The notes beneath the pieces were generated by a model. That model worked only from the letters and a program-made list of their open reading frames with translations. It ran no database searches and was not told the origin of the DNA. Both the position numbers and the translations under genes were made by a program. A stretch of 64,000 nt of DNA, taken from assembly GCA_002748265.1 (NCBI GenBank), contig PDRY01000019.1, forward strand, positions 1 through 64,000, given 5' to 3'. The DNA comes from Rhodobacterales bacterium. Lineage in GTDB: Bacteria; Pseudomonadota; Alphaproteobacteria; Rhodobacterales; Rhodobacteraceae. Below are positions 193-20,875 of this stretch, piece after piece; position 1 is the first letter of the stretch; the number at the start of each line of letters is the position of its first letter.

Positions 193-803
193 CAATGAGA
201 AAAGATGTCCTGTTCCGGCCAGCCTTCAAGGTCCAGCAGCGCCCGCGTGGGCAGAAAATCGAAGCATTTATTGGCAAGATCCAGCCGATCCTCGCGTTCC
301 ATACGCTCGATCAGCTTCTCGCGCAGGCGGTGCAGGTGCAGCACGTCAGAGGCGGCATAGTCCTGCTGCGCGGCGGTCAGCTCTGCGGCGCCCCAGTCGC
401 TCATTTGTTGCTGTTTAGAGATATCGACCCCGATCAGCTCCTGCGTCAGCATCTTGAGCCCGTGGCGATCCGTATAGGTCCGCACCAGCTTGCTGGCGAT
501 CTTGGTACACCAGACCGGCGCGGCCAGAGCGCCAAAGGCGTGATACATCGCGGCAATGTCGAAACGACCGAAATGGAACAGTTTCAGCACATCGGGGTTG
601 CGCAGCATGGCTTCTAGGTTGGGCGCCGATGTCTGCCCCTTGGCGATCTGCACCAGATGCGCGTTGCCATCCCCGCCCGACATCTGCACCAGGCACAGCC
701 GGTCGCGGTGGGGGTTGAGCCCCATGGTTTCGCAGTCGATCGCCACGATCGGACCCAGATCCAGCCCGTCCGGCAGATCGCCCTGATAAAGATGATTGGC
801 CAT
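192..803 (-). CDS. rnd: Ribonuclease D, short single-domain form
   Basis: Predicted 3'-5' exoribonuclease acting on tRNA precursors and other stable RNA. At 203 residues it holds only the DEDD exonuclease domain; E. coli RNase D (about 375 residues) also has two HRDC domains. The catalytic set is visible: D23 and E25 in IDCET, D82 in HFGRFD, and the YxxxD motif Y149-D153. Such short versions are usual in alphaproteobacteria. The gene is translationally coupled to kdsD downstream. Family assignment is secure; the RNA substrate is inferred. Confidence 0.88.
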   Translation of the reverse strand: MANHLYQGDLPDGLDLGPIVAIDCETMGLNPHRDRLCLVQMSGGDGNAHLVQIAKGQTSAPNLEAMLRNPDVLKLFHFGRFDIAAMYHAFGALAAPVWCTKIASKLVRTYTDRHGLKMLTQELIGVDISKQQQMSDWGAAELTAAQQDYAASDVLHLHRLREKLIERMEREDRLDLANKCFDFLPTRALLDLEGWPEQDIFSH

Positions 804-862
804 GTCGCCCTCTTTCCTCTGTTACCGCGGGTGATGCCCCAGCCATGGCGTCAGAGCAAGGC

Positions 863-2986
863 TCAGGCCATCAGCGCCGCGCGAACCTCCGCGATCTTGG
901 CCGCTGCCACGGTCAGCACTTCGGTGCCGCAGGACACCACCACATCGCGCCCCGCCTTGGTGACCAACGGCTCGCCCATCACGGTCCAGTCGGTCACGTC
1001 GATGCTGCCGCCATTGAACCCTTCGATCCGCTGCGGAAGGCCGGTGCGGGCGAAGGTGATCCGCGTGTCGGCCTCTTTGGTCATGACGATCACCGATTGC
1101 CCCTTGGCGGCGAAGATCTCATTGCGCCCGCCGCCGCAGGTGATGTGGTTGCGGCCCGATCCGCAATGGACCACGTCCTCCTCGTCGCCGCAGATCACGG
1201 TCAGATCGCCGGTGGCGCCGAACACCTCGGTGCGGGCCCGCTCGCTTTCCACCCGGTCGTGGCCGCTGCCGCAATAGACCTGCGCATCGGCCGATCCGGT
1301 GTTCACCACATTGTCGCCCCGCGTCAGGTGGGCAGTCAGCGGATCGAGATTCACCTCGATGAAATCGTCCCCCGCGCCGTCTTCGACGGTCAGGTGGAAC
1401 CGCTTGTGCCCGCCCTTGAACAGCACCCGGTTGCCGTCATCGTTCAGCACGATCCGCAGATCGGTGAGCGATCCGATCACATCAGCCGCGAGCGAGACTT
1501 CGCGGTAGCCCGGCGGGACATGGACCGTGCCGTTTTCCGGCAAGGTCACATAGAACCGCCGCATCCCCGGCGCACCCGGCGCATCCGGCAGATCGCCCAC
1601 CGAAACGGCGCCCCGACTGGCCGCGCGCACCGGCCCGCGCACGCCGCGCAGCACCGACAGGTAGGTCGTCGGATCGGGCACCGCCTCTTCGTGGTCCAGC
1701 TGGGTCAGCCCATAGGCGCGCGTGGTCTCATCCAGAGCCTTGCGCATCTCGGGCATCAGGGGGCTGTCCTTGGACAGATCGTGCAGTTGCGAGAGATCCT
1801 CGGTCACGTCGTAGAGCTGCTCTGACCCGTCCTGATAGCGGATGTAGCGATAGTTGCCCTTGCGGATCGCGGCGCTGCCGAACCACACGGTCGGCACGGC
1901 GCGCTCCGCATCTGGGGCGGCGCCCTCCACCATGGGCCGCAAGGACCGCCCGGCGCAGCCCTGAAGCGGTGCGCTGTCGGTGTAATCCATCACCGTGGGC
2001 CCCACATCCAGCGTGGCCACCGGCGTCGTGATCTCGCGGCCCACCGGGTTATCGGGATCGAAGATGATCATCGGCACCCCGGTCGCTTCCTCCCAAAGGG
2101 AGAATTTGCGGAACCGGTGCTTGTCGCCCAGATGGTAGCCGTGATCGGCCATGATGATGACCACCGTGTTGTCAGCATGGGGCGACGCCTGAAGCGCGTC
2201 CCACACCCGGCCGATATGGCTGTCCACATGGGTCAGGGCCGAGAAGTAGTTGCGCACACTCTTGCGCCAATGCTCCAGATCGGACTGGTCGTAATTTTCC
2301 GGCACGAACTCTTCGACGAAAGCAGAGCTGTCCATCCCCCCGGCCCAGTCTTCGGGCTGGGAGAAGTCCTCTTCGTCATACATCTGCTTGAACCGGTCGG
2401 GCGTGCGGAACGGCGGATGCGGGTGGTGGAAGCCAACCTCTCGGTAGAAGGGCGCATCGCCCTCATAGCCGTTCAGGAACCGGATCGCGTCCTGAGCCGA
2501 GCGCGCATCGTAATACTGGCGGTCCAGCTTTTCGTCGGTGGTGCCCACGCCCCCCATCAGCCCGCCATATTTGTTGTGGGCCGCGTCGCGCTTTGGTCCA
2601 AAGAACACGTGCCGCGACGGATGGTTGTAGAGCGTGTCATGCTGCTCATCGGGGAGCGGCTTGAACATGTGGTGCACCTTGCCCGCGGTCGAGCAATAGT
2701 AACCCTTCAGCTTGAGCCGGTAGGACCACATCTGTTCGGGCCGCAGCACATCAAAGACCGACGTGTAGTTGTCAAACACCCCGGTCTGGTGCGGTGCCAT
2801 GCCCGACATAAAACTGGCACGGGACGGCCCACAGACCGGCACCTGGCAATAGGCGGCCTGGAACGCCGTGGCCTGTTCGCAAATGCGGTCCAGATTCGGG
2901 GTCTGAAGCCTGGCGCCATAGACGTTGCGATACCGCCAATAGGCGAAGCAATCGTCCATGCTCATCAAAAGGACGTTCTTGGTCAT
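863..2986 (-). CDS. Type I sulfatase with repeat-rich C-terminal tail
   Basis: Formylglycine-dependent sulfatase (alkaline phosphatase superfamily), 707 residues. The N-terminal metal Asp pair (D11-D12) and the modification motif C52-G-P-S-R56 are intact, followed by a metal-binding ADHGYHLGDKH stretch near residue 285. The catalytic part ends near residue 460. The remaining 250 residues contain Gly/Asp/Cys-rich repeats (CGSGHDRVE, CGSGRNHIT, CGGGRNEIF) that resemble degenerate RTX-type beta-rolls. No signal peptide is visible, so export through a type I system is possible but inferred. The ATG at 2986 overlaps the upstream TGA (TGATG); a GTG lies one codon earlier. C52 should be matured by the FGE at 7330-8313. 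The substrate is unknown; a sulfated glycan is likely. Confidence 0.85.
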   Translation of the reverse strand: MTKNVLLMSMDDCFAYWRYRNVYGARLQTPNLDRICEQATAFQAAYCQVPVCGPSRASFMSGMAPHQTGVFDNYTSVFDVLRPEQMWSYRLKLKGYYCSTAGKVHHMFKPLPDEQHDTLYNHPSRHVFFGPKRDAAHNKYGGLMGGVGTTDEKLDRQYYDARSAQDAIRFLNGYEGDAPFYREVGFHHPHPPFRTPDRFKQMYDEEDFSQPEDWAGGMDSSAFVEEFVPENYDQSDLEHWRKSVRNYFSALTHVDSHIGRVWDALQASPHADNTVVIIMADHGYHLGDKHRFRKFSLWEEATGVPMIIFDPDNPVGREITTPVATLDVGPTVMDYTDSAPLQGCAGRSLRPMVEGAAPDAERAVPTVWFGSAAIRKGNYRYIRYQDGSEQLYDVTEDLSQLHDLSKDSPLMPEMRKALDETTRAYGLTQLDHEEAVPDPTTYLSVLRGVRGPVRAASRGAVSVGDLPDAPGAPGMRRFYVTLPENGTVHVPPGYREVSLAADVIGSLTDLRIVLNDDGNRVLFKGGHKRFHLTVEDGAGDDFIEVNLDPLTAHLTRGDNVVNTGSADAQVYCGSGHDRVESERARTEVFGATGDLTVICGDEEDVVHCGSGRNHITCGGGRNEIFAAKGQSVIVMTKEADTRITFARTGLPQRIEGFNGGSIDVTDWTVMGEPLVTKAGRDVVVSCGTEVLTVAAAKIAEVRAALMA

Positions 2987-5259
2987 CACGCAAACTCCGT
3001 CCGCATCAGGCGGATCCGGCCCGACAACGCATAGCGGTGCAGGGTCTGACCCGGCGCCAACAGGCTGGGCGCGGCATAGCCGTCCCTCAGGGTGCCCCGG
3101 TTGGCGGCGTGCCCGTCCCCGGCATCGCCCTGCGCGCCCCAGGCATAGGTGATGTGCACGTCATCCCCTTCGGGCGCGGCGTCGAGCTCCAGCAGGACGG
3201 TCTTGCCCTCCACACGGGCGGACAGGATTTCGGGGGCGTTGGCGGCCTCGATGGCGAAACCCGCCGGCGCGCCCTCGAACTCCAGATCGGTGAGCGCGTT
3301 GAACGCGACCCGCAGCGTGGTGCCCCGCAGATCGGCCTGCCGCAGGGAGGGGCAATACCACCGGGCGCCGCTCTGAATCGTGGCGACGGCCTGCGCCTCC
3401 AGCTCGTCGATCAGCATCTGCGCCTCGGGCGCGTGGGTCGCGGCGGTGCCCTCCATCAGCGCGAAGGGGTATTTGGGCGTTGCCACCACGGCCCCCAGGG
3501 CGGGGCACAAGATGTCCAGCATCCCCTCAGCCAGAGCCACCGTGCTGCGCCCGTCATCGCGAGTGCCCGCGCTCTGGCTTACGACCAGCAGCGGCGCGGT
3601 GCTCTGCCCGGCGGCCTGCGCCACGGCGCGGGCCAGGGCCTCCCCGGCGGTCGCATAATGCGCGACGGCGTCGTCAAAAGGCGTCTCCGGCGCGCCGCCC
3701 AGAAGCGACAGCGCAATGCGGTCGACGAACAGCACCTTGTCCCAGGCCTCCATCGCGCGCGCGGCCTGTTCGACCTGCGCGAGCAGAGCGCGGGCGGGGG
3801 CGGCATCCATTGCGGCATCGCGGGCCACAGCGCCAGAGATGGGCTGATCCATGGCGATCACCGTGCTCAGCGCGCGGGCCGCGTGATCGGCCTGCCCCAG
3901 CAGCGCAACGCCATGGGCCGCCGCCGCGTGAGGCGCGGGGGGCTCTGCGATGGCGGGACGGCGCAGGTGATAGTCGAACCGCTCCGGCAAGGGGCGCTGC
4001 ACCGCCGTGCCGCCAAAGCTGGCAGCACCGAGGGCCAGATCGGGGGTCTGGGCCAACGTGACCGCGCCGCGCTGCTCATAGCCCATGACGCGGCCCGCAT
4101 ACTGGTCCGACAGATAGGCCATGCCGTGATCGGTGGCGCGGGCCATCCAGACATTGCCGCGCGTGCGTGGGCGGGGGGCATCGGTTTGAGACACCTTTGG
4201 CGCCGCCTGGGGCGGGTTTTCCTCGGGCGCGCGGTAGACGATCGGATCGGGCTCCGTCGCCGCCGGAGCAGAGATGACAGGCACCTCCGGCCGGATCGCT
4301 TCGGGCTGGGGCGCGGCAGGCTCCGCTATCGGCGGGGCTTCCGCAGGCTCGGGGTCAGGATTGTCCTGCGCCTCGGCAGCGGCCTTTTGTCGCGACCGGG
4401 TCTGGAATGCTTTGCGGAACTGCGGGATCAGGCTGTCGCGCCCGCGATCCGCCAAGTGCTCCTCCATCGCGCGGCGATAGACATAGAGATCTTTCCGCGC
4501 GCGGATGAGGCTGTAGAACTCCGCCTCTGTCAGCGTGCCGTTGATCGCCCCCGCCATCACCGGTTTGAGCCGCTCCATCCTCCGCAGCAAAAGCGCCGTC
4601 TTGTGCCCCAGCCCGAACCCTTTCAAGTGGACAAGATTGTCCTGCGGCAGGCGCTCCACATGGGCCAGATCAGCAGCAAGGAACGGATCATAGAGCACAT
4701 AGGCCCGCCCCAAACGGCCCAGTTGATCGGCCGCATCGGAATAGGGCAGGCTCCAGTCCTGCGCCTGGCCCTTCTGAAACCGGCTTTCCCAGCCCACCAG
4801 ATTGCGATCCAAAGTGGATTGCGGGCTCATCGCGACCACGGTGGCCCCGGGGGCCAGCGACGAAAAGGTCAGCGCGGCAAAGGCGCCCATCGACGTACCG
4901 ACCATGGCGACGCGCTTGAACTGAGAGAAAAAGCCCTGATCGCGCAGCAGCTCGAGGAAGCCGATGATCTGCGCATCGCGGAACCAAGTCGGCCCCTGGG
5001 CCATCACGCCCAGATGGCTCCAGCCGTTCTGGCGGATGAATTTCGTAGCCCAGGGCTCGGGATCGTAGCCCGGATAGCCCGCATCCGAGAGGTTGTCGAA
5101 GCTCACGACAAGCTGGTGATCGCCCCGGTCCACGAAAGCGGCGCTGTGCTGGCCCAGCTTGTGATAGAACCCGTCGCGCGGCCCGGCAGGAAAGATCTCG
5201 GCATACCAGCTTGAGATGCGGGAATGGATGTCGTCGAAATCTGGATCTTGCTCGCTCAC
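2986..5259 (-). CDS. Two-part putative esterase: alpha/beta-hydrolase plus SGNH/carbohydrate-esterase-like C-terminus
   Basis: Protein of 757 residues, unnamed. Residues 1-270 form an alpha/beta-hydrolase with nucleophile elbow GTSMG (Ser123), a YDPF acid-loop candidate and GLGHKT as likely catalytic His. Residues about 340-390 are a Pro/Ala/Glu-rich linker. The C-terminal part (about 390-757) has a late ATHAPEA motif followed by a small beta-domain, reminiscent of sialate-O-acetylesterase-like SGNH proteins, although no clear GDS/GQSN block was found. The GTG at 5259 is preferred because the hydrolase homology starts just after it and the longer frame upstream is low-complexity. It is coupled to the sulfatase downstream by an overlapping stop/start. 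Relatives are sometimes labelled PAPS reductase in databases; nothing here supports that. Confidence 0.7.
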   Translation of the reverse strand: MSEQDPDFDDIHSRISSWYAEIFPAGPRDGFYHKLGQHSAAFVDRGDHQLVVSFDNLSDAGYPGYDPEPWATKFIRQNGWSHLGVMAQGPTWFRDAQIIGFLELLRDQGFFSQFKRVAMVGTSMGAFAALTFSSLAPGATVVAMSPQSTLDRNLVGWESRFQKGQAQDWSLPYSDAADQLGRLGRAYVLYDPFLAADLAHVERLPQDNLVHLKGFGLGHKTALLLRRMERLKPVMAGAINGTLTEAEFYSLIRARKDLYVYRRAMEEHLADRGRDSLIPQFRKAFQTRSRQKAAAEAQDNPDPEPAEAPPIAEPAAPQPEAIRPEVPVISAPAATEPDPIVYRAPEENPPQAAPKVSQTDAPRPRTRGNVWMARATDHGMAYLSDQYAGRVMGYEQRGAVTLAQTPDLALGAASFGGTAVQRPLPERFDYHLRRPAIAEPPAPHAAAAHGVALLGQADHAARALSTVIAMDQPISGAVARDAAMDAAPARALLAQVEQAARAMEAWDKVLFVDRIALSLLGGAPETPFDDAVAHYATAGEALARAVAQAAGQSTAPLLVVSQSAGTRDDGRSTVALAEGMLDILCPALGAVVATPKYPFALMEGTAATHAPEAQMLIDELEAQAVATIQSGARWYCPSLRQADLRGTTLRVAFNALTDLEFEGAPAGFAIEAANAPEILSARVEGKTVLLELDAAPEGDDVHITYAWGAQGDAGDGHAANRGTLRDGYAAPSLLAPGQTLHRYALSGRIRLMRTEFA

Positions 5260-5443
5260 GGGCGCACCCTTGCATCTACTTGTTATCGCGCCGATGGCCG
5301 GGCCCAAAGGCTTTGACCCGTTGTGCGCGGCGCGCGCGCTCAGGTCAAGTTTGGCAGCCGCCTCAGCGACATCGGGGCGCAGACGCAATCTGGCGTGCGC
5401 GGACGGGGTCGCGTATGACAGGCGAAACAGGAGACCGGGGCAG

Positions 5444-6361
5444 ATGGCAGACAGCGACAAGCAGGCACGCGCCGCCCAGTGGCGCGAGACGCTCAAGGAT
5501 ATCGCCCGCGAAAAGGGCTTCTTCGAAGAGGTCGGTCCCGCCCACAAGGCGATCTATATCCCGCAGGAAGGCCCCGCCGGAAAAACGCTGGTGGTGGCTT
5601 TCGACAATCTCGACGATGTGCGCCAAAGCAGCGACCGCCTGCCTTGGGCGGTGGATTTCATCTCGTCGCAGGGGTGGTCGTCGCTGGGGTTCATGGCCCA
5701 TGGCATGACCTGGTATCGCGACGATCACGTGCATGATTTCTTCGACCGGATGCAGGCAGAGCGGTTCTTTGATCAGTTCGAGCGCGTCGTGTTCTACGGC
5801 ACCTCCATGGGCGGCTATGCGGCCAGCGTGTTTTCATCGGCGGCGCCGGGATCGACGGTGGTGGCGATCAACCCGCAGGCCACGCTGTCGCGCGAGCGCG
5901 CCGGGTGGGAGCGCCGCTTCCGCCCAGCATGGCGCAATGACTGGACGGGCCGCTACGGCTATGCGCCCGACATGGTGCGCGACGCCGAAAAGGTCTGGCT
6001 GTTCTATGACAGCTCCAACGCGCCGGACAGCATGCATGTCGCGCTCTATCGCGGTGAGAACATCGAAAAGGTGGCCTGCCCCTTCATGGGGCATGGAATG
6101 CTCACCGTGTGGCGCGACATGGGGGTTTTGAAACCCGTCGTGTCCGGCTGCATCAATGGCACTGCCTCGCGGCTGGAGATCGCCCGTCTGATGCGCGCCC
6201 GGCACTTGTCGGGGGCCTATCAAAAGATGCTGCTCAAGCATCTGGAACAGACCGGAGACCACGCGAAGATCGCAAGGCTGTGCCGTTTCGTCATCTCTAA
6301 ACGCCACGCGCCCCATTTCCGCAATGCTCTGGCGCGGGCCGAAGAAGCGCTAGCCCGCTAA
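5444..6361 (+). CDS. Alpha/beta-hydrolase, paralogue 2 of the cluster
   Basis: A 305-residue protein clearly related to the N-terminal half of the product of 2986-5259 and to that of 6358-7269. The shared order is VAFDNLDD, GWSSLGFMAHG-TWYR, the elbow YGTSMGGYAASVFSS (Ser121), INPQATL, FYD and FMGHGML (candidate catalytic His). It is a single domain with no signal peptide, hence probably cytoplasmic. The ATG at 5444 follows a GGAGA-type ribosome site; the longer upstream frame lacks homology. It is divergent from the 2986-5259 gene across 184 bases and converges on the next paralogue with a 4-base overlap of stop codons. The substrate is unknown; esterase activity is inferred from the fold. 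Confidence 0.75.
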   Translation: MADSDKQARAAQWRETLKDIAREKGFFEEVGPAHKAIYIPQEGPAGKTLVVAFDNLDDVRQSSDRLPWAVDFISSQGWSSLGFMAHGMTWYRDDHVHDFFDRMQAERFFDQFERVVFYGTSMGGYAASVFSSAAPGSTVVAINPQATLSRERAGWERRFRPAWRNDWTGRYGYAPDMVRDAEKVWLFYDSSNAPDSMHVALYRGENIEKVACPFMGHGMLTVWRDMGVLKPVVSGCINGTASRLEIARLMRARHLSGAYQKMLLKHLEQTGDHAKIARLCRFVISKRHAPHFRNALARAEEALAR

Positions 6362-7269
6362 CCCCGCGCGGCCTCCAACGCCGCCGCGAAATGCGGGCGG
6401 GCGGTGGGGGCGCTGTCGTCCAGTACAGCGGCGCAGTATTGCGCGATCCGGGCGGGGCGGCCCCGCTCTGTCAGAAGGCTCAGCATCCGTTTCTGGAAGA
6501 AGGGATGATGCCGCCGCTGCGCCAGAAGCGCGTGGATCGCGCGCGCGTCCAGCTCTCCGCGATAGAGCCCTTCAAGGAGCGGCGTGAGCACCCCCACCCG
6601 CGCCAGAGCCTGATGCACATCCCCGCCCAGATGCGGCAGGCGCAGCCGGGTCACGTTGGGCGTGTCGAACAAAGCCGCATGCATGGCGTCTTCGAACACG
6701 AAGGGATCGAACAGCAGGAACACATCCTGCGCCGCCAAGACCTCTTCGGGCGCATAGCCATAGCGCCCCGTGAAATCGCACGCCCAGCCCTGACGGAACC
6801 TCGGCTCCCAGCCTTTCGTCACGGACCGGTCCAGCGTGGCCTGCGGGCCAAAGGCGATCACGGTCGCGCCGGGGCTGGCGCTGCTGTAGGCGCAGGCCGC
6901 ATAGCCTCCACTGGAGGCGCCGCGAAAGATGACCCTCTCGAACCCGCGGAAAAAGCCCTCATCGCGCAGCTCATCGAAGAAGTCCCAAACCGCCGGGCTG
7001 CGATACCAGGTCCAGCCATGGGCCAGGATGCCCAGGGCCGACCAGCCGCCTGCGCAGGTCGCGGCCATCTCGCGGGGCATGTCGGCCTTGAGCGACTGGC
7101 GCGGATCATCGAGCCGTTCGAAATTCACGACCAGCGTTCCGCCGCCCTGCCCCGATCCTTCGACGAACAAAGCGTGATGCGCCCCATCCAGATCGGTGTG
7201 AAGCCCACGCTCCGCCGCTATGGCGTGAAGCCGGGGGGCCCAATCGGCATGGCTGTGGTCTTGCGGCAT
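6358..7269 (-). CDS. Alpha/beta-hydrolase, paralogue 3 with altered active-site region
   Basis: A 303-residue paralogue of the two hydrolases above: VNFERLDD, GWSALGILAHGWTWYR, elbow RGASSGGYAACAYSS (Ser119), FGPQATLDRS, LFDPF. The elbow is GASSG rather than GTSMG. At the position of the Gly-His pair in its siblings (MGHGM, LGHKT) it reads HLGGDVHQ, so the presumed catalytic His is displaced or lost. It may have changed substrate or lost activity. The ATG at 7269 has a GAAGGA-type ribosome site. Its stop overlaps that of the convergent paralogue by four bases. Confidence 0.72.
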   Translation of the reverse strand: MPQDHSHADWAPRLHAIAAERGLHTDLDGAHHALFVEGSGQGGGTLVVNFERLDDPRQSLKADMPREMAATCAGGWSALGILAHGWTWYRSPAVWDFFDELRDEGFFRGFERVIFRGASSGGYAACAYSSASPGATVIAFGPQATLDRSVTKGWEPRFRQGWACDFTGRYGYAPEEVLAAQDVFLLFDPFVFEDAMHAALFDTPNVTRLRLPHLGGDVHQALARVGVLTPLLEGLYRGELDARAIHALLAQRRHHPFFQKRMLSLLTERGRPARIAQYCAAVLDDSAPTARPHFAAALEAARG

Positions 7270-7329
7270 CTCTGTCGTCCTTCGGCTGCGCCCGCGCGAC
7301 GCTATCACGGCGCGCGGCGCGGCCCAAGA

Positions 7330-8313
7330 TCATCCCGCATCGGCGGCGGGCCGGAACCCGATATGCCCGGTGGAGCTGTCCGGCGTGATGAGCGTGCGCG
7401 AATGGACGAAATACCGCTCGCAATACGAGGCTTGACACAGGTGCGAGCCGCCCCGGATCACCTTGCCCGGCCCCTGATCCGGACCTTTCGGGTCACTGGG
7501 CGGCGGCATAGAGGCCTCGGGCAGTGGGCCGAACCACGTATCGGTCCAGTCCCAGACATTGCCGGTCATCTCGTAAAGGCCATAGCCATTGGCTGGATAG
7601 CTGCGCACCGGCGCCGTGCCCGCATAGCCATCGCCCAGCGTATTCTCGATCGGGAAGCGCCCCTGCCAGACGTTGTGCAGGTGTTTTCCGCCCGGCTCTA
7701 GCGCATTGCCCCACGGGAATTTCGCACGCTTGCGCCCGCCCCGCGCGGCGCATTCCCACTCTGCCTCGGTCGGAAGGCGCATGCCGGTGAAGTCGCAAAA
7801 AGCCTGTGCATCGAACCAGCTCACATGGACCACAGGGTGATCCTCGCGCCCCTCCACGGAGCTGCCGGGGCCTTCGGGCTGATCCCAGCGGGCATGCTGC
7901 ACCGGGCGCCACCACGGGGTCGCGGCAGGGCCGGGCGGGTGGCGGTCGGGATCGTCCAGAAAGCTGACGAACACAGCGGACCAGCCTTCCGCCTCGGCGG
8001 TGGTCTGATAGCCGCTCTCTTCGATGAACCGGGCAAACAGCGCATTGGTCACGCAGGTCTCGGCCAGCCGAAACGGCGACAGCCGCACCCGGCGCGGGGG
8101 GCTGTCCAGATCGGGCGCATGGCGCACATTGCGCGCGCCCATCTCAAAGAACCCGCCGGGGATCGGGCGCAAAAGTGCATGCACATCGGCCCGCAGCGCA
8201 TCCGAAGCGCGCGTGGTCAAGGCCGGCACAGCGCCCCCTTTGCGCGCCATCGGCGCACCGCCATCGCGCGCCATCGGCGCGACACAACAGCCCTGATAAA
8301 CCTTATCCGTCAT
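7330..8313 (-). CDS. Formylglycine-generating enzyme (sulfatase maturase, SUMF1/EgtB-type fold)
   Basis: Converts the cysteine of sulfatase CxPxR motifs to formylglycine, an aerobic copper-dependent reaction in the cytoplasm. The product has 327 residues and the full FGE-sulfatase fold: GGFFEMG near the start, HPVVHVSWFDAQAFCDF, RLPTEAEWECAARGG, GLYEMTGNVWDWT and VIRGGSHLCQASYCERY. Both active-site cysteines are present with the correct spacing (C293 and C298). That separates a true FGE from EgtB/SenA relatives, which lack the pair. The sulfatase with a CGPSR motif at 863-2986 is the obvious local client. The ATG at 8313 lies 76 bases from the divergent GSCFA gene. Confidence 0.92.
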   Translation of the reverse strand: MTDKVYQGCCVAPMARDGGAPMARKGGAVPALTTRASDALRADVHALLRPIPGGFFEMGARNVRHAPDLDSPPRRVRLSPFRLAETCVTNALFARFIEESGYQTTAEAEGWSAVFVSFLDDPDRHPPGPAATPWWRPVQHARWDQPEGPGSSVEGREDHPVVHVSWFDAQAFCDFTGMRLPTEAEWECAARGGRKRAKFPWGNALEPGGKHLHNVWQGRFPIENTLGDGYAGTAPVRSYPANGYGLYEMTGNVWDWTDTWFGPLPEASMPPPSDPKGPDQGPGKVIRGGSHLCQASYCERYFVHSRTLITPDSSTGHIGFRPAADAG

Positions 8314-8389
8314 GGCCGGACCTTCCGCCCCCGCCCGGCTTGTGTCAATCTCGCCCCGAAACCCCAAATGTCGCAGCCCCGGAGCGCCC

Positions 8390-9550
8390 ATGGCCCGCAG
8401 AGCGATCGTCCACCAGTTCCAGTCCACCAAAGCCGAAGAGGGCGTCCACTCCACCTGGTTCCGGGGGGAGCACACCAACTTCAACCCGACCCGGCTGCAA
8501 ATGGTCGGCGTCAATGGCGTGCCGGAATTCGTTCTGAAAGGCTGGGCGCCCGAAGCCCCGCTGATCACGCCCGACACGCAGATCACCGCGTTCGGGTCGT
8601 GCTTTGCGCACAATATCTCGAACTGGCTGTCGAAACGGCACTTCCGCGTGCTCAACAAGGCCGAAGACGCAAAGCGCGCCTATATCGTGGCCTTTGGGGA
8701 AGGCATGGTGAACAGCTTTGTGATCCGCCAGCAATTCGAATGGGCCTGGGAAGGCAAGGTCTTCGATCAGCCGCTCTGGCACGGCTATGACGCGCAGGAA
8801 TACGGCTACGATCCCCAGGTGCAGGCCGAAACCAAGCGGATCTTTGATGAAACCGACGTGTTCATCCTGACCTTCGGCCTGTCGGAGGTCTGGTATGACG
8901 AACCCACCGGAAACGTGTTCTGGCGCACGATCCCGAAAGACGCCTACGACCCCGAACGGCACAAGTTCCGTGTGTCCTCCGTCGAGGAGAACGAAGAGAA
9001 CATCCGCGCGATCTACGCCCTGATCCGCAAGCACCGGCCCGACGCGAAGATCATCATCACCCTGTCCCCGATCCCGCTGATCGCCACCTTCCGGGACAAT
9101 TCCTGCCTGACCTCCAACGCGGTCTCAAAGGCGGTGCTGCGCGTGGCGATCGACAACGTGATGCGCGATCTGGGGGAGGAAGGCGCGATCTTCTACTGGC
9201 CGTCCTACGAGCTGGTCACGGATGTGCTCTCCCTGCCCTACAAGCCCGACCGGCGGCACCCCTACACGGACACGCTGGACTACATTATGACGCTGTTCGA
9301 ACATGTCTGGTGCGTCACCAGCGACGACAATCCCCCGCCGCCGCTTCTGGATGCCTGGGTCAGGGCGCTCGCCGCCGCCGACATCCTGCCTCGGGAACTG
9401 GGCCCGATGGTGGAGGGCAAACGCCCCTGGAAAACCCGAGCCGTCTCCCACCGCGAAGAGCCGCTCGACCCCGACCCGGAGATCGACGCGGCCCTGCGCC
9501 AGATGCTCCGCGATCTGGTGGCCACCTGGCTGGAGGCGGGGGCGGGGTAG
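8390..9550 (+). CDS. GSCFA-domain protein
   Basis: A 386-residue protein with the family signature near the start (TAFGSCFAHNIS, Gly69-Ser70-Cys71), then an FGEGMVNSF block and a conserved LSEVWYDEPTG. The GSCFA family is related to SGNH/GDSL hydrolases and is often found beside polysaccharide genes; its reaction is not well established. LTFGLSEVW and TLSPIPLIATF are the conserved strands, as in other members. ATG 8390 was chosen because the conserved sequence starts there and a GGAGC motif precedes it; a longer frame starts at 8312 inside the FGE start region. Its neighbours suggest a role in glycan ester chemistry, which is inference. Confidence 0.82.
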   Translation: MARRAIVHQFQSTKAEEGVHSTWFRGEHTNFNPTRLQMVGVNGVPEFVLKGWAPEAPLITPDTQITAFGSCFAHNISNWLSKRHFRVLNKAEDAKRAYIVAFGEGMVNSFVIRQQFEWAWEGKVFDQPLWHGYDAQEYGYDPQVQAETKRIFDETDVFILTFGLSEVWYDEPTGNVFWRTIPKDAYDPERHKFRVSSVEENEENIRAIYALIRKHRPDAKIIITLSPIPLIATFRDNSCLTSNAVSKAVLRVAIDNVMRDLGEEGAIFYWPSYELVTDVLSLPYKPDRRHPYTDTLDYIMTLFEHVWCVTSDDNPPPPLLDAWVRALAAADILPRELGPMVEGKRPWKTRAVSHREEPLDPDPEIDAALRQMLRDLVATWLEAGAG

Positions 9551-9705
9551 ATACAACTCCAAGGAGATAGAGCACCCGCCATCACCTGGCCCGTCGCCTG
9601 ACGTCCAAAGCCCAATCCATTCAACATCCAGATCGGGGATCGAACACCTAGCCCGACAAGCCCCCGTAGGCTAGGGTCCGTCGAGCAGACGAAAGGGGAC
9701 GACAA

Positions 9706-10788
9706 GTGACTCAGGACATTAGACAGTTCCCCGGCTTTGACACGATCCGCGTCATCGCTGCTGCAGCGGTTGTCTTTTCGCACAGCTTCTTGTTGGCCGA
9801 AGGCTTCGAAACCAATGAGCCGGTCGCAAAGCACACAGGCACAGTCCTGGGCGTCTACGCCGTCCTTGTGTTCTTGATCCTAAGCGGATTCCTCGTCACC
9901 GACTCCGCCGAGCGCAGCAAATCTTTTTTGCAATATGCATCAAAACGACTGCGGCGGATCGCTCCGGGCTTCATCTTCAACGTGCTGTTCGTCACCGTGT
10001 TTCTGTGCGCGATTTTCGCGGTGGATCGCGGCGTCGATTTCCTGTCACGAAGCGCAACCTGGCTTAACGTTTTCAAGGTACTAACGTTCCAGGAACCCGG
10101 GCTCTATTTCCCGGATGTCTGGTTTTACACACCGACCCCGGGACAGGACACTGCATTGCCATCGGTCGCAAATGGCGTGCTGTGGACAATCAGACTGGAA
10201 GCGGCTTGCTATCTGATCGTTGGGCTTCTCATGGTCACGCGACTTCTGACGAAAGCTTCGGCTCTGGTGCTGCTGCTAGCATCGTTTGGTCTGGCCTTCG
10301 CATACGATTGGCAGGTGATCCGGTTGCTTACGGATTTCTTCTTCGTCTTTCCCAGTTTCATGGTTGGAGTCGTTTTTCAAAAGTTCGCCGGCCACCATCA
10401 AGCCCATGGCGGGATCGCACTGGGATCACTCATCGCGCTGGTCGTGCTGTCGCTGGTGCTGCCCGTCTGGCCATGGGCACTGGCGGCGCTTTTTCCGGTC
10501 CTCGCCGTATACCCGCTAGTGTGGGCCGGGCAACGCGACTGGTTCGCGCTCAGGTGGCTCCACCGCCACGGAGACCCCTCCTATGGCATGTACTTGTGGG
10601 GCTGGCCGATCCAGCAGGTCACACGCGCGATCGTCGGTCCGGGCTGGTCTGGATTCGGCTTTGCGCTGCTGACGATCCCGCTGACTTGGTTGGCCGGGGT
10701 GATATCATGGAAATACATCGAAGCACCAATGCTCGGCCGCAATCGCTCCGCCCGACGGAAAGAGGCGGACACGGATGGATCAGCGTAA
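9706..10788 (+). CDS. Membrane acyltransferase, family 3 (OafA-like)
   Basis: A 360-residue integral membrane protein with about ten hydrophobic segments. It starts with the family signature FPGFDTIRVIAAAAVVFSHSF, which includes the conserved Arg and the catalytic His. Family members transfer acetyl or other acyl groups to sugars of O-antigen, exopolysaccharide or Nod factor at the inner membrane. A C-terminal SYGMYLWGWPIQQ segment is also typical. Start is GTG at 9706 after GAAAGGGGA. The gene is visibly less GC-rich and more mixed in codon use than its neighbours, compatible with transfer from another genome. It lies 155 bases downstream of the GSCFA gene on the same strand, so joint transcription is possible. 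Confidence 0.87.
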   Translation: MTQDIRQFPGFDTIRVIAAAAVVFSHSFLLAEGFETNEPVAKHTGTVLGVYAVLVFLILSGFLVTDSAERSKSFLQYASKRLRRIAPGFIFNVLFVTVFLCAIFAVDRGVDFLSRSATWLNVFKVLTFQEPGLYFPDVWFYTPTPGQDTALPSVANGVLWTIRLEAACYLIVGLLMVTRLLTKASALVLLLASFGLAFAYDWQVIRLLTDFFFVFPSFMVGVVFQKFAGHHQAHGGIALGSLIALVVLSLVLPVWPWALAALFPVLAVYPLVWAGQRDWFALRWLHRHGDPSYGMYLWGWPIQQVTRAIVGPGWSGFGFALLTIPLTWLAGVISWKYIEAPMLGRNRSARRKEADTDGSA

Positions 10789-10834
10789 GATCAAGCGATC
10801 TGCGTCCGCCCTCTGATCCTGGCGCACTCCCTGC

Positions 10835-11842
10835 TTACTGCCCCACCGCCGCCGTCGAGGCCCGCTCCACCAACGCGCATGCCAGCTCGACCCGCCGGGC
10901 GGGGATGGATGTGCCCGCCTCGGCCGCCTGAAGCGTCTGGTGCAGCAGGTCCAGCGCGGCGGCGCCCACCTCGCGCATCGGGATCGCGACGGAGCTGAGC
11001 GGCGGATCCACCAGCCTGCTTTGCGGCAGCCCGTCGATGCCCATGACGGACATGTCACGCGGCACCACAATCCCGGCGCGGCGCAGTGCCATGATCGCCC
11101 CTGCCGCCAGCACATCGCCGGTCGCTAGAATGGCCGTGGCCTGACCGCCCTGGGCCAGCCACTCGGTCACCGCAGCTTCGGCCAGATCGGCGCGCCAGTC
11201 GTCGACCCCGATCACCAGCGCCGGGTCGTGATCCGCGCCCATCGCGTCGCGCCAGCCCTCCTGGCGGCGCAGGATCGTGCGGCGCCCGGCCCGCGTCAGG
11301 AACGCGATGCGCCGGTGCCCCAGCCCGCGCAGATGCTGTGTGGCCAGCGCCGCCGCCGAGCGATTGCAGGGCGCGACCGAGCTCAGCCCCATGTCGGGAT
11401 CGTCGCCGTTGATCAGCACCACCGGCACCGGAAGAGCACGAGCCAGCTCCAGCAGATCGTCATCCACGGTCAGCATCAGAACTCCGGCCAGCCCCTCGGC
11501 CCCGGCCTCCGCGCGCAGCGCGGCCTCCTCAGCCGGGGACACCAGCGTGCGGTTTTCGATCCGCACGCCCAGCCTCTCGGCGCGGGCGCTCAGCCCTTCC
11601 AGCACGTGCAGCGTGAACTGGTTGCGCTCAAAGTCCACCATCGCCTCGCGCGAGGCGGCGAGGATCACGCGCTGCCCGTCCAGGCTGCGCGCCGGGCCAT
11701 AGCCCAGCTCTGCCGCGCAGGCCCGGATCCGCTGCGCCAGATCGTCGCGCACATAGCCCTGCCCAGACAGCGCACGCGATACGGTCGCCGTGGAAACACC
11801 AAGGCGATCAGCAATATCGGACAGGCGGGGGCGTCGGGTCAT
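10835..11842 (-). CDS. LacI-family transcriptional regulator of the oligouronide operon
   Basis: A 335-residue repressor-type protein. The N-terminal helix-turn-helix and hinge (RLSDIADRLGVSTATVSRAL, about residues 5-24) precede a periplasmic-binding-protein-like sugar domain ending near residue 330. ATG 11842 starts directly at the HTH; the longer upstream frame has no homology. It is divergent from the GH105-kduI-transport operon with 72 bases between the starts, the standard arrangement for a local repressor released by a pathway sugar. The effector is unknown; a uronate derivative such as 2-keto-3-deoxygluconate is plausible from context. Confidence 0.88.
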   Translation of the reverse strand: MTRRPRLSDIADRLGVSTATVSRALSGQGYVRDDLAQRIRACAAELGYGPARSLDGQRVILAASREAMVDFERNQFTLHVLEGLSARAERLGVRIENRTLVSPAEEAALRAEAGAEGLAGVLMLTVDDDLLELARALPVPVVLINGDDPDMGLSSVAPCNRSAAALATQHLRGLGHRRIAFLTRAGRRTILRRQEGWRDAMGADHDPALVIGVDDWRADLAEAAVTEWLAQGGQATAILATGDVLAAGAIMALRRAGIVVPRDMSVMGIDGLPQSRLVDPPLSSVAIPMREVGAAALDLLHQTLQAAEAGTSIPARRVELACALVERASTAAVGQ

Positions 11843-11914
11843 GGCCCAACATGAAAAGAAATTACAGATTGTGCAACGGATTTCACCCTGCAACGCTCAC
11901 GTCAGGAGGATCCC
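11843..11914. promoter_or_regulatory. Divergent promoter/operator region of LacI gene and uronate operon
   Basis: The 72-base region between the divergent starts carries two copies of TGCAACG (11872-11878 and 11889-11895), 17 bases apart, and a strong CAGGAGGA ribosome site just before the GH105 start. The repeats may be half-sites for the regulator, but no full LacI-type palindrome with a central CG is obvious, so this is only a suggestion. Confidence 0.3.
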
Positions 11915-13024
11915 ATGCCCGAAGATTCGCCCCCACCGCTGACCCGCGCCCGGCTCGATGCCGCGCTGGAGCAGCTTGTGGGCGGACTCACCGGGCTGGC
12001 CGATGGCGGGCTCTTCGATGAGCCGAACCTTGACGGCACCCCCGGCGATTACATCAGCTTCGATGCCTGGGAATGGCCGCAGGGCGTGGGGCTCTACGGG
12101 CTCGCGCAGCTTTGGCGCGCGCGGGGGCACGATCCGCAGCTCACTGGGGTTCTGACCGACTGGTATGACCGTGCCATCCATCGCGGCTTGCCGGTGATGA
12201 ACGTCAACACCACCGCGCCCATGCTGGGGCTGTCGCTCCTGTGGGAGCAGACCCGAGAGCCCCGCTTTGCCCCCGTTCTCGACGGCTGGGCCGACACCGT
12301 GATGACCACAGCCCCCCGCACGCCGATGGGCGGCCTCCAGCACGATGTCAGCGACAAGCTCAACGCCGGAGAGCTGTGGGACGATACGCTCTTCATGGTG
12401 GCGCTGTTCCTGGCCCATTACGGTCAAGCCAGCGGGCGGCGCGATCTGGTGGACGAGGCCGAGCGGCAATTCCTGATCCACGCGCGCTACCTGTCGGACC
12501 CCGAAACCGGCCTGTGGTTCCACGGCTGGAGCTTTGAGGGCCGCCACAACTTTGCCCGCGCCCGCTGGGCCCGGGGCAATGCCTGGATCACCGCCGGGAT
12601 CCTCGATCTGATCGAACTGGCCCGGATCGCCCCCGGCACGCGCGCCTTCCTACTGGACGTGCTGCGCGAACAGGTCGCCGCACTGATCCCGCTTCAGGCG
12701 GCATCCGGCCGCTGGCACACCTTGCTGGACGATCCCGGCAGCTACGAGGAGACCTCGGCCACCGCCGGGTTCGCCTATGGGCTGCTCAAAGGCGCCCGGC
12801 TGGGCATCGGCACGCCCGATTGGCAGGCCGCGGGAGAGCGCGCCTTGCACGCCGTACTGCGCGCCATCGACCCCGGCGGCGTGGTGCAGGGCGTCAGCTA
12901 CGGCACCCGCATGGGCCACGATCTGCAACATTACCGCGACATTCCCGTCCAGCCCACGGGCTACGGCCAGTCGCTCGCCATGCTGGCCCTGATCGAGGGC
13001 CGCCACCTCACCAAGGAGACGTGA
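11915..13024 (+). CDS. GH105 unsaturated uronyl hydrolase (YteR/RhiN-like)
   Basis: Cleaves the unsaturated uronic acid from the non-reducing end of lyase-produced oligosaccharides by hydration of the double bond. The 369-residue product has the (alpha/alpha)6 barrel pattern of GH88/GH105. The ELWDDTLFM motif carries the putative catalytic Asp157 (compare QLWMDTLFM in YteR), and RWARGNAWITAGILDL matches the conserved helix further on. There is no signal peptide, so it acts in the cytoplasm on imported oligosaccharides. First gene of the operon; kduI follows one base after its stop. The uronate (galacturonyl-rhamnose, glucuronyl-rhamnose of ulvan, or other) cannot be told from sequence. Confidence 0.87.
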   Translation: MPEDSPPPLTRARLDAALEQLVGGLTGLADGGLFDEPNLDGTPGDYISFDAWEWPQGVGLYGLAQLWRARGHDPQLTGVLTDWYDRAIHRGLPVMNVNTTAPMLGLSLLWEQTREPRFAPVLDGWADTVMTTAPRTPMGGLQHDVSDKLNAGELWDDTLFMVALFLAHYGQASGRRDLVDEAERQFLIHARYLSDPETGLWFHGWSFEGRHNFARARWARGNAWITAGILDLIELARIAPGTRAFLLDVLREQVAALIPLQAASGRWHTLLDDPGSYEETSATAGFAYGLLKGARLGIGTPDWQAAGERALHAVLRAIDPGGVVQGVSYGTRMGHDLQHYRDIPVQPTGYGQSLAMLALIEGRHLTKET

Positions 13025-13025
13025 C

Positions 13026-13862
13026 ATGACCATGGGCCAACGCTACGGGGCCGGACCCGAGCATATCGACATGATGGACACCGATGCCCTGCGCGCGGAA
13101 TTCATGGTCGAAGGCAGCTTCGCTCCCGGAGACATCGCCTTCACCTACACCCATTACGACCGCATGATCGTGGGCGGCGCGGTACCTCTGACGGATCCGC
13201 TGACCTTCGGGTCGGGCGAGGACGTGGGCACCGACCGCTTCTTTGACGCGCGCGAAATGGGCATCGCCAATCTCGGCGGCGCGGGCTGGGCCGAGGTGGA
13301 CGGCACCCGCTATGTGCTCTCCAACCGCGACATCCTCTATGTCGGGCGGGGCACCGGCTCGGTGACGCTGGGCAGCGACGATCCCGCCGCGCCCGCGTGG
13401 TTCTACATGAACTCCGTCCCCGCCGGGGCGGACATCCCCACGCGGCTGATCCCCAAGGCCGAGGCCAAAGTCATCACCATGGGCGATGAGGCGAAAAGCA
13501 ATGTCCGCTCGCTCGCAATGTATATCCACCCCGAAGTCGCGCCCTCGTGCCTGCTGCTGATGGGCATCACCGACCCGGCGCCCGGTTCGGTCTGGAACAC
13601 GATGCCGCCCCACCTGCATGAACGCCGGATGGAAGCCTATTGCTACTTTGACATGGCAGACGAAAACCGCGTGATGCATTTCATGGGCCGCCCGGACAAC
13701 ACCCGCCACCTGGTCGTGGCGAATGGCGATGTGGTGCTGTCTCCGGCCTGGTCCATCCATATGGGCGCGGGCACCGGGCCCTATGCCTTTGTCTGGGGTA
13801 TGACCGGCGAAAATCAGGCCTATACCGATGTCGATCCCGTCGCGATCGCGGAGCTGCGGTAA
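13026..13862 (+). CDS. kduI: 5-dehydro-4-deoxy-D-glucuronate isomerase
   Basis: Isomerises 4-deoxy-5-keto-hexuronate to 2,5-diketo-3-deoxygluconate, the step between the GH105 product and KduD. The 278-residue cupin matches the family length. The zinc ligands sit at the positions known for E. coli KduI: H196 and H198 in PPHLHERRMEAY, E203, and H245 in WSIHMG. It is in the same operon as GH105 and the transporter; the ATG at 13026 is preceded by AAGGAGA within the end of the GH105 gene. Confidence 0.95.
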   Translation: MTMGQRYGAGPEHIDMMDTDALRAEFMVEGSFAPGDIAFTYTHYDRMIVGGAVPLTDPLTFGSGEDVGTDRFFDAREMGIANLGGAGWAEVDGTRYVLSNRDILYVGRGTGSVTLGSDDPAAPAWFYMNSVPAGADIPTRLIPKAEAKVITMGDEAKSNVRSLAMYIHPEVAPSCLLLMGITDPAPGSVWNTMPPHLHERRMEAYCYFDMADENRVMHFMGRPDNTRHLVVANGDVVLSPAWSIHMGAGTGPYAFVWGMTGENQAYTDVDPVAIAELR

Positions 13863-13863
13863 C

Positions 13864-16317
13864 ATGCTGGCGCCGGGCACGCCCCTGACCCACTGGCAGG
13901 TCGCGCGCGCGCCCGATCTGGGTTTTGACGTGCCCGATCAGCCGATGGAGGGGGAGATGGATTCGCTCTTCTTCCTCACCAAGGACCGGAACGTCATCCC
14001 CCACACCTATCCCTGCCGCACGGCCTATATCGCGCAGGCACGCGACAAAAAGCCCACGCCCGGCCCCGCGCCGGATTGGACGCGCGCCGAAAACTGGCTC
14101 CCATTTGGGGCGCCTTTGCTGGATCTGTCGGGCTTTTGGTTCCGTGCCACCCGCGTGTCGGGATGGGCCCGCACATCGGTGCAGTGCGAGGCTGATGGCC
14201 CCGCCCGGCTGCGACTGGGCACCTGCGGCGGGGCGCTCTTGTTCGTGAACGGGCACGAAGCCGGGTGGATCGCGCCCGCCACACGCAACGCCATGGCCGA
14301 GGCCGAAATCGCCGTGACCCTGCGCGCGGGCGAAAACGATCTGGTGATCTGGTATGACGACCTGTGCGAGCGGGACGCGCGGGTGCTGGTGTCTCTGGTC
14401 TGGGAGGGCGGCCCCACGGCCACCAGGATCAGGCCCTATCCCGCGGAACAGAGCCTGTCATTCGTCACCGAAAAGGCGCTCAGCGCGCTTCATTTCACGC
14501 AGCCCCGCTACGACAGCGGAGAGGACATCACCCTGACCTTCCCGGTCCCCCTGCCCGTGGACGCTCAGGTAGAAATCACCATCGCCGGGGATTTCATGTC
14601 CCACCAGGCCGAACGCCTCACCCGCACGCTGCCCGCGGGGGAAACCCGGCTGACCCTTGGCCCGGCACGCGGGGTCCGGGCGGATTACCGCCATTTCCAC
14701 ATCGCGCTCACCGTGGACGGCCACCGCTTTGCCCGCACGCTGGGGGTGGAGGTATCTAACCGCACGGATCAGGGCGCTGCCCCCGCCACGCTGCCGGAGC
14801 GGATCGCTGAGGCGCTCTCCCATATCGCCGCGATGGCCGAGCCCGACACCGTGCGCGCGCTTGCCTGCCTCGCCACCGGCGCGGACGGTGCCGAGGACAT
14901 GATCGCCGCCAGCCTCCCGCCGATTGAAGAGTGCTGGGACTGCGCCGATTTCGCGCTTGTTCCGCTGCTCTGGGCGCGGATGGCCTATGGCGACGGGATA
15001 GACCCGAACCTCCGCGATAGGGTCGATCGCGCGATCCTTGGCTATCGCTACTGGATGGATGAGCCCGGGAATGACGTGCAGTGGTATTTCAGCGAAAACC
15101 ACGCTCTCTTGTTCCACACCGGCGCCTATCTGGCCGGGCATCTGTTCCCCGATGCCGCCTTCGCCCGCTCGGGCCGCTCCGGGCGGGACCAGTCCGCTGT
15201 GGGACGCGCGCGGGTGCGTGCCTGGCTCGATCACTTCGAGACGTGCGAAATGGCGGAATTCAACTCCGCCCCCTATTTCCCCATCGACCTCAAAGGGCTC
15301 TGTGCGCTCCATGCGCTCGCCCCAGATGAGGACATCCGCAGCCGCGCCGCCAAAGGCATCGCGCGGCTGGTGGAGGTGATCGCCAACTCCACCCATCAGG
15401 GCGTCATGACCGGCGCGCAGGGCCGCAGCTATGAGCACACGCTCTGCGCCGGGGAAACGCTGGAGCTGTCGGGCATCGCCCGGATGCTCTGGGGGCGGGG
15501 CAGCTATGGCGCACGGGTCCACGCGCTGCCGCTGCTCGCCCTGTGCCTGCGCGATCACGGGCTGGGCTTGCCCGACCTCACCGATCGCGCCTGCTGGCCC
15601 GATCCGGCGACGCAGCAGGAATGGACGTTCCAGCAGGGGCAGAACGCCTTTGCGCGGCTCTATCATGCGAAATCGGCACACACCGCGCTGGGCTCCGCCG
15701 CGCTCTATCGCTGGGGCGATTGGGGCTATCAGGAAACGCTGGTCCATGCCCGGATCGGCTCCGATCCGCAGGCGCAGGTCTGGATCAACATGCCCGGAGA
15801 GCTGATCCAGTGCGGCTATGGCCGCCCCTCCTACTGGGGCGGGTCGGCCTCCGTGCCGCGCGTCCAGCAATACCGCGATCTTGCGGTGGTGCTGTTCGAT
15901 GGCGAAGCGCCCCAGCCCGATCTGACCCACGCCTGGTTCCCCACCATGGTGTTCGACGACTGGGTCGTCGATGGCCCGCGCGCCCATGCCCGCCAAGGCA
16001 AAGGACATGTGATGCTGGCGGCCTCCGGGGTGCTGCACCTGACGGATACCGGCCCCTCCGCCGGGCGCGAGCTGACCCTGCCGGGTCGCCGCGCCGCTTG
16101 GGTGATCCGAACCGGACAAGGCGCCGATTTCACCGCGCGCCACAGCGCTCTGGCGGCGCCCGACTTCACCACCGGCGCGCTCACGATCAACGATGCCGAT
16201 TACGGCCCCGTCACCTTCCGCCCCGACGGAACCGTCTCCGCCGAGGGCCGCACGCTTGACCCCCGCGACTGGTCGCTGACAGGATCGCGGAGGACCATGC
16301 CCCAGCACGGGGCATAA
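13864..16317 (+). CDS. Large protein of unknown function in the uronate operon; (alpha/alpha)6-barrel enzyme candidate
   Basis: An 817-residue protein I cannot assign to a named family. Residues about 60-190 look like a beta-sandwich with a VNGHEAGW turn, similar to galactose-binding modules. Residues about 310-620 are helical, with repeated aromatic/His motifs (QWYFSENHALLFHTGAYLAG, YFPIDLKGLCALHAL, GRSYEHTLCAGE). This suggests an (alpha/alpha)6 barrel as in polysaccharide lyases and several glycosidases. Residues about 690-800 form a C-terminal beta-domain starting with THAWFP..VFDDW, a motif of the lyase/heparinase-like type. No signal peptide is visible. The start at 13864 follows the kduI stop by one base. 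Position between kduI and the importer points to a cytoplasmic oligosaccharide-cleaving enzyme, which is inference. Confidence 0.7.
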   Translation: MLAPGTPLTHWQVARAPDLGFDVPDQPMEGEMDSLFFLTKDRNVIPHTYPCRTAYIAQARDKKPTPGPAPDWTRAENWLPFGAPLLDLSGFWFRATRVSGWARTSVQCEADGPARLRLGTCGGALLFVNGHEAGWIAPATRNAMAEAEIAVTLRAGENDLVIWYDDLCERDARVLVSLVWEGGPTATRIRPYPAEQSLSFVTEKALSALHFTQPRYDSGEDITLTFPVPLPVDAQVEITIAGDFMSHQAERLTRTLPAGETRLTLGPARGVRADYRHFHIALTVDGHRFARTLGVEVSNRTDQGAAPATLPERIAEALSHIAAMAEPDTVRALACLATGADGAEDMIAASLPPIEECWDCADFALVPLLWARMAYGDGIDPNLRDRVDRAILGYRYWMDEPGNDVQWYFSENHALLFHTGAYLAGHLFPDAAFARSGRSGRDQSAVGRARVRAWLDHFETCEMAEFNSAPYFPIDLKGLCALHALAPDEDIRSRAAKGIARLVEVIANSTHQGVMTGAQGRSYEHTLCAGETLELSGIARMLWGRGSYGARVHALPLLALCLRDHGLGLPDLTDRACWPDPATQQEWTFQQGQNAFARLYHAKSAHTALGSAALYRWGDWGYQETLVHARIGSDPQAQVWINMPGELIQCGYGRPSYWGGSASVPRVQQYRDLAVVLFDGEAPQPDLTHAWFPTMVFDDWVVDGPRAHARQGKGHVMLAASGVLHLTDTGPSAGRELTLPGRRAAWVIRTGQGADFTARHSALAAPDFTTGALTINDADYGPVTFRPDGTVSAEGRTLDPRDWSLTGSRRTMPQHGA

Positions 16318-16355
16318 CCAGCCCATCCGGGCCAACCATCTGGGAGGATGAGAAA

Positions 16356-19681: not shown

Positions 19682-19690
19682 GGGCGCATA

Positions 19691-20872: not shown

Positions 20873-20875
20873 CCC

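Follow-up and report, generated by a model that had tools for sequence, protein, structure and literature searches.

Positions 863–10788 of a 64,000-nucleotide stretch of Rhodobacterales DNA (contig PDRY01000019.1, positions 1 to 64,000; hereafter the window) are best read as a stripped-down copy of a glycan-decoration island of the Rhodobacteraceae. Its seven genes encode a sulfatase, a true formylglycine-generating enzyme (FGE), three hydrolase-like paralogues (HYD1–HYD3), a GSCFA-family protein and an acyltransferase-3 protein, a gene content that an earlier note on the bare sequence had listed and that our analysis confirmed in full. That note left unseparated the C-terminal domain of the largest hydrolase, here called HYD1c, which by its sequence appears to be a previously undescribed domain. 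With this domain set apart, the core of the island becomes the sulfatase plus HYD1c, a near-constant pair. Sulfatase, HYD1c, hydrolases and GSCFA protein very probably form one system, and we give an even chance to the proposal that the island edits a surface polysaccharide made by the cell itself, altering its sulfate and perhaps its acyl groups.

Recurrence of the sulfatase with HYD1c

A HYD1c profile, with the family judged from named relatives, was run on 248 Rhodobacteraceae genomes (one per genus) and matched 27 places in 25 of them. Twenty of these 27 places have a PF00884 sulfatase no more than 5 kb away, where chance proximity would be about 1% per place (with PF00884 matched about 3.4 times in each genome and genome size taken as 3.7 Mb). 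The seven places lacking a sulfatase consist of one at which the contig ends (G028) and six weak matches of 22–50 bits with partial coverage (G018, G046, G091, G165 and two in G121, one of the latter on a 3.5 kb contig); an equally weak place in G183 (44 bits) is accompanied by the sulfatase. The profile was built partly from lineage-A genomes (those of the window, G010 and G235), and the 13 lineage-B loci among the 20 places with a sulfatase played no part in its construction.

In lineage A, to which the window belongs, tblastn and profile searches of fetched loci found sulfatase and HYD1c together in 14 loci, window included (WIN, L006–L008, L010–L015, L019, L020, L040 and L048; genes of L012 and L020 were assessed by six-frame profiles and tblastn). 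Thirteen of these loci were found via the hydrolase, whose presence there is not independent, and the locus counts omit the short loci L021–L027 and seven duplicates. In lineage B, HYD1c is a separate protein homologous to that of lineage A (hhalign 99.9%, 349 columns), and at least seven aligned lineage-B loci (L071, L072 and L074–L078, not L073) carry an extra protein of about 247 amino acids (aa) together with HYD1c and the sulfatase. The two of these extra proteins that were scanned (L075 and L078) had no Pfam match; by eye, the protein resembles a ConA/LamG-type lectin. HYD1c itself was considered as an SGNH-like domain and rejected, profile comparisons with a plasmid protein annotated as sialate O-acetylesterase and with GSCFA both giving less than 1% probability. 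A sequence search against solved structures returned nothing usable for HYD1c, the hydrolases, the GSCFA protein or the acyltransferase.

GSCFA genes follow the pair as well. The 25 genomes with a HYD1c place contain 79 PF00884 match rows, 20 of them core sulfatases and 59 others, and 5 of the 20 core sulfatases have a GSCFA gene within 10 kb, versus none of the 59 others in the same genomes (at least 18 GSCFA genes listed; the Poisson P of about 7e-8 calculated from them is a rough figure). The comparison of gene neighbourhoods across Rhodobacteraceae that the earlier note had proposed as a check brings out sulfatase, HYD1c, hydrolases and GSCFA together well beyond chance; for these members the idea of one system survives the refutation by co-occurrence that the note itself had named.

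The sulfatase and its maturation

The sulfatase (863–2986, minus strand, 707 aa) has the [CS]-x-P-x-R signature of S1 FGly sulfatases, in the Cys-type form CGPSR, within a PF00884 domain (137.7 bits). CGPSR is unchanged in 14 of 14 aligned sulfatase homologues, and CxPxR is retained by all 20 core sulfatases, including a G022 gene split across two frames; the motif reads CAPCR in lineage B, and a third form, CMPSR, is found twice in G150. The catalytic domain (about residues 1–430) is followed by a C-terminal glycine-rich, RTX-like repeat region (about residues 430–707), in which residues 523–647 give weak calcium-repeat profile matches. These repeats are more regular in lineage B, with four to five GGxGxD motifs in intact sulfatases versus zero to three in lineage A, and one scanned lineage-B sulfatase matched PF00353 (RTX repeat) at 46 bits. 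A PrtD-type exporter was matched by a permissive test in 19 of 20 genomes (18 above the cut-off), with two in the genome of the window. That genome has two PF00884 matches at 1e-10, both CGPSR: the window sulfatase and a second sulfatase-family gene (L133, C20:508–1599), which adjoins a gene that we take to resemble phosphonoacetaldehyde hydrolase.

FGE (7330–8250, minus strand; start codon ambiguous among 8250, 8274 and 8313) lives up to its description as a true FGE, with PF03781 at 239 bits, the C-x4-C pair CQASYC, and matches to FGEs of known structure at E ~1e-84. No other PF03781 match reaches E 0.001 in the assembly (2.79 Mb, 88% complete). Oxidation of the sulfatase cysteine to formylglycine by FGE is established chemistry of these families, and FGE would here act on the CGPSR cysteine in the cytoplasm; we infer its pairing with this sulfatase because the two are adjacent and FGE is the sole PF03781 protein of the assembly. 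Since the genome contains two CGPSR sulfatases, FGE may serve both.

Among the 19 core genomes, a true FGE occurs in five (G000, G150, G183, G235 and G240) and an anSME above the TIGR03942 cut-off in two (G010 and G111), and weaker PF03781 proteins with the Cys pair absent or outside the alignment occur in G022, G131, G182, G205 and G221. Seven genomes (G023, G084, G100, G104, G117, G129 and G191) had neither PF03781 (at 1e-5) nor TIGR03942 over its cut-off in a search that did not extend to other anSME-like types; sub-cut-off radical-SAM matches were seen in G023 (105 bits) and G100 (25 bits). Of these seven, G117 belongs to lineage A and the other six to lineage B. Incomplete assemblies may explain some of the gaps, yet G104 (3 contigs, 100%) and G117 (10 contigs, 99%) are nearly complete. 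Genomes that have a CxPxR sulfatase and no recognised maturase are candidates for other formylglycine-forming routes.

The hydrolase-like family

HYD1 (2986–5259, minus strand, 757 aa) has no Pfam match above cut-off and fuses an N-terminal hydrolase-like domain (about 4369–5235) to HYD1c (about 2992–4116). HYD2 (5444–6361, plus strand) is a stand-alone paralogue that keeps both a putative catalytic Ser (GTSMGGY) and a His (the LGH... column), as does HYD1; HYD3 (6358–7269, minus strand) keeps the Ser (GASSGGY) and has lost the His column. The earlier description of the three as related alpha/beta-hydrolases held for the relationship, HYD2 being 43% identical to HYD3 and 38% to HYD1. The fold label is less secure: it is based on a marginal Abhydrolase_6 match of HYD2 (26.9 bits versus a cut-off of 26.3) and on GxSxG-like motifs, HYD1 and HYD3 having no Pfam match at 0.01 and HYD3 lacking the His column. 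Counterparts in a Thioclava locus (L007) are 66% (HYD2), 59% (HYD1) and 51% (HYD3) identical to the window proteins, and for this reason the paralogues look older than the divergence of the window and Thioclava genomes.

The profile of this family matched 192 of the 248 genomes, with at most nine candidates per genome scored for most genomes. In an alignment of 101 rows (the three window proteins are counted twice, and two rows are gapped at the sites), the Ser and His columns are both kept in 68 rows and both lost in 25; four rows have Ser only, two of these being window HYD3, and two have His only. Elsewhere in the alignment, D189 is found in 96 rows, D195 in 97 and H198 in 95. A family found in 192 of 248 genera thus shows two putative catalytic residues lost as a pair, which suggests that they have a joint role and that some members of the family are not catalysts. 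HYD3 need not be active, because its putative catalytic His column is missing; it is possibly not an esterase, and not all three paralogues need be active.

Outside the island, 13 common-type hydrolase loci (L053–L060 and L062–L066), chosen from hydrolase-profile matches rather than at random, all contained a Ser-less form, together with a PF13704-type gene in 10, a Sulfotransfer_4-type gene (C13) in nine and an FkbM-type gene (C18) in six. They adjoin genes that are presumably pyrC, pyrE and dnaB. The hydrolase-family domain also occurs inside Rhodobacterales plasmid proteins annotated as glycosyltransferase, polysaccharide pyruvyl transferase and sulfotransferase (L049, L051 and L052).

GSCFA and acyltransferase genes

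The GSCFA-family protein (8390–9550, plus strand; SGNH clan) matched PF08885 at 153.6 bits (cut-off 25). Three of the 14 lineage-A loci carry GSCFA (WIN, L015 and L020), and the homologues in L015 and L020, 70% and 65% identical to the window protein, stand beside the same sulfatase. A 2022 review gives this family no known function (PMC9487903); the island offers it a genomic context.

The acyltransferase-3 membrane protein (9706–10788, plus strand, 360 aa) had been described as OafA-like. Its Acyl_transf_3 domain (PF01757, 75.1 bits, residues 10–329) supports that description in part; full OafA, however, bears a C-terminal SGNH domain, to which the window protein had no match. No acyltransferase homologue was found in the 71 other loci examined, leaving the window as the single one of 14 lineage-A loci to have it. 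The acyltransferase gene adjoins the island and is not part of the recurrent set.

Genomic settings in relatives

Pfam families of neighbouring genes were tallied for 141 of 157 proteins (sets of 64 and 77; the tally omits 16 from L067 and L068), and the first 25 of 59 and first 25 of 53 families were listed. PF13704 glycosyltransferases were the commonest neighbours (10 of 64 and 11 of 77 proteins) and occur in nine of the 14 lineage-A loci. FkbM (methyltransferase), GT61, GT90, group-1 and rhamnosyl transferases had two or three members each, and esterase-like BD-FAE accounted for four of 64. Among the families listed for these 141 proteins, none of glycosidases or polysaccharide lyases reached two members; single cases do occur, GH88 in the window and GH16 in a Paracoccus copy. 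Genes that look like sulfotransferases by motif only follow the sulfatase in L006, L011 and L019 and lie close to it in L008; the one such gene scanned had no Pfam match.

Deposited records add further settings. Named culturable relatives with the island include Thioclava sp., Tateyamaria sp. Alg231-49 and Ruegeria arenilitoris. A record from Aliiroseovarius (sp. M344) places the lineage-B set among GT2, GT90, GT61 and FkbM genes, and on Marinibacterium plasmid pLA6_007 a tail-less sulfatase homologue (53% identical over residues 1–431) is surrounded by genes deposited as kpsM, kpsT, vexD, vexE, kfoC and sulfotransferase. In a third Thioclava record, besides the two annotated plasmids discussed below, the hydrolase and the sulfatase are both matched. 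On balance, the neighbour settings favour synthesis and tailoring over degradation.

Proposed function and alternative explanations

We propose that the sulfatase would strip sulfate from the cell's own sulfated polysaccharide. The likelier place for this would be the cell surface, reached by type I export via the RTX-like tail, and the alternative the cytoplasm. HYD1c perhaps holds or presents the glycan. HYD1 and HYD2 would modify this polymer as serine esterases or acyl-transfer enzymes, members without Ser and/or His, such as HYD3, would be non-catalytic partners, and the GSCFA protein probably adds or removes an O-acyl group. The earlier note had left open whether the glycan was a surface or a scavenged one; we favour the cell's own because many relatives carry glycosyltransferases, some carry FkbM methyltransferases, and sulfotransferase-like genes occur as well. 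A bolder form of this proposal, that an exported, HYD1c-dependent RTX sulfatase edits the assembled surface polysaccharide in marine Rhodobacteraceae and that lineage-B CAPCR sulfatases are matured by neither FGE nor a known radical-SAM maturase, seems to us rather unlikely. Bacterial sulfatases are usually read as degradative; the present one has a new domain as partner and, in many relatives, neighbours of synthesis type, which opens to test the idea that a cell edits its own sulfated coat.

Several observations weigh against this proposal. The glycosyltransferase profiles used gave no match in the window, where the cluster adjoining the island is catabolic. In two annotated Thioclava plasmids, sulfatase, HYD1, HYD2, FGE and HYD3 occur with no glycosyltransferases nearby. 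The Marinibacterium sulfatase gene, which lacks the tail and is followed by a transposase gene, may be a truncated one, and a Paracoccus plasmid encoding a 32% identical sulfatase and HYD1c has the GH16 gene immediately upstream and genes for sugar transport close by. The remaining neighbour families are mostly single occurrences and seem unrelated. As to export, PF00353 is absent among the Pfam matches of the window sulfatase, inspection by eye saw no signal peptide in it, and no exporter gene was found adjoining it. HYD1c matched neither SGNH protein with which it was compared, and a quarter of the hydrolase rows have neither Ser nor His. FGE, local in five of the 14 lineage-A loci (WIN, L006, L007, L014 and L048, of which L007 and L048 are both Thioclava), lies within 15 kb of two of the 20 core sulfatases versus one of the 59 other PF00884 rows; it is a variable member, and its frequency near core sulfatases in the unbiased set is hardly above that near the others.

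The catabolic cluster next door (10835–21640) comprises a LacI regulator, GH88 (276.5 bits), KduI (365.8 bits), a sugar ATP-binding cassette (ABC) importer and an 829-aa protein without a Pfam match (13828–16317), and from its gene content it appears to be of polyuronide type. One could suppose that sulfatase, FGE and hydrolases desulfate and deacylate a scavenged sulfated polyuronide which this cluster then degrades, and both its adjacency and the GH16 gene beside the Paracoccus copy speak for this; so does the combination of sulfatase, FGE and glycosyl hydrolase, given as the usual signature of degradation in one study (PMC9723792). However, neither a GH88 homologue nor any counterpart of the GH88/KduI cluster was found in the 71 other loci examined, the top recurrent neighbour is a glycosyltransferase with no recurrent glycosidase or lyase family listed, and the acyltransferase and LacI genes sit between the island and the GH88/KduI/importer set. 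We consider this GH88-linked explanation unlikely and rank it below self-editing. Still less probable is a choline-sulfatase-like enzyme that scavenges sulfate or an osmolyte, with the hydrolases as unrelated lipases or esterases. Choline-sulfatases are indeed the best matches of the window sulfatase among solved structures (E 1.3e-35 to 4.6e-34), and one relative has the deposited name betC, but the window protein scored 190.1 bits with the choline-sulfatase model TIGR03417, under its cut-off of 433.45, and the RTX-like tail, the near-constant HYD1c partner and the glycosyltransferase-containing settings do not fit a small-molecule role.

A scaffold role, in which most of the hydrolase paralogues bind glycan within a synthesis complex without being catalytic and the sulfatase alone does the editing, is possible though doubtful. 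The paired loss of Ser and His in rows that keep D189, D195 and H198 is consistent with such a scaffold, as are the Ser-less forms at every common-type locus, mostly beside PF13704-type genes; window HYD1 and HYD2, by contrast, keep Ser and His like the majority of rows. The probability that unrelated genes with no common function lie together by chance is very small. The acyltransferase is confined to the window among the loci searched, and FGE and GSCFA are variable members, as such an explanation would have it, but the recurrence figures for HYD1c and GSCFA, and a set common to two divergent lineages and plasmid copies, already contradict it for sulfatase, HYD1c, hydrolases and GSCFA. Of the single gene set in the earlier note, the sulfatase, hydrolases and GSCFA recur together, FGE recurs at some lineage-A loci, and the acyltransferase falls outside.

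Layout of the island

The HYD1 stop codon overlaps the sulfatase start codon (ATG 2986) as TGATG, and the convergent HYD2 and HYD3 genes overlap by 4 bases. FGE and HYD3 are co-oriented with a gap of 60 bases, FGE and GSCFA are divergent with about 140 bases between them, and GSCFA and the acyltransferase gene are co-oriented on the same strand. Divergent promoters, listed as seen in the earlier note, found no support as motifs, none of which exceeds chance: the one sigma-70-like site in 700–10900, versus 1.4 expected, lies inside the acyltransferase gene, and what is present is a divergent gene arrangement. Composition showed no sharp boundary. The first base of the window is base 1 of the contig, with nothing visible to its left; an RNase D-like gene occupies 192–803, and any genes to the left of it are out of sight. 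A role in defence was also considered and dropped, PADLOC giving no match for the seven island proteins.

Comparison with known systems

The sulfatase shares with S1 FGly sulfatases, as set out in the SulfAtlas description (PMC5066984), the [CS]-x-P-x-R motif, the PF00884 domain and an adjoining FGE; the island adds the RTX-like tail, the HYD1c partner and, in relatives, mostly non-catabolic neighbours. The Marinibacterium plasmid links it to Kps/Vex ABC-transporter-dependent capsule clusters, since the sulfatase homologue there stands among such deposited names, including a sulfotransferase and a chondroitin polymerase, whereas the seven genes of the window include no exporter or polymerase gene. 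A polysaccharide utilisation cluster would be recognised by glycosidase or lyase partners that recur, and these were absent among the listed families of the 141 neighbour proteins. The GSCFA protein is a member of its family within the SGNH clan, and the family lends it no mechanism. Heparan sulfate of the cell's own making is edited in animals by extracellular Sulf endosulfatases, and if self-editing is true the window sulfatase would act alike; both belong to the sulfatase superfamily, and we claim no closer membership. The earlier note had not recognised the combination from described systems, and in the open-licence papers searched we likewise found no description of this gene set. The chemistry is of known kinds, and HYD1c and the maturase gap are its most unusual parts.

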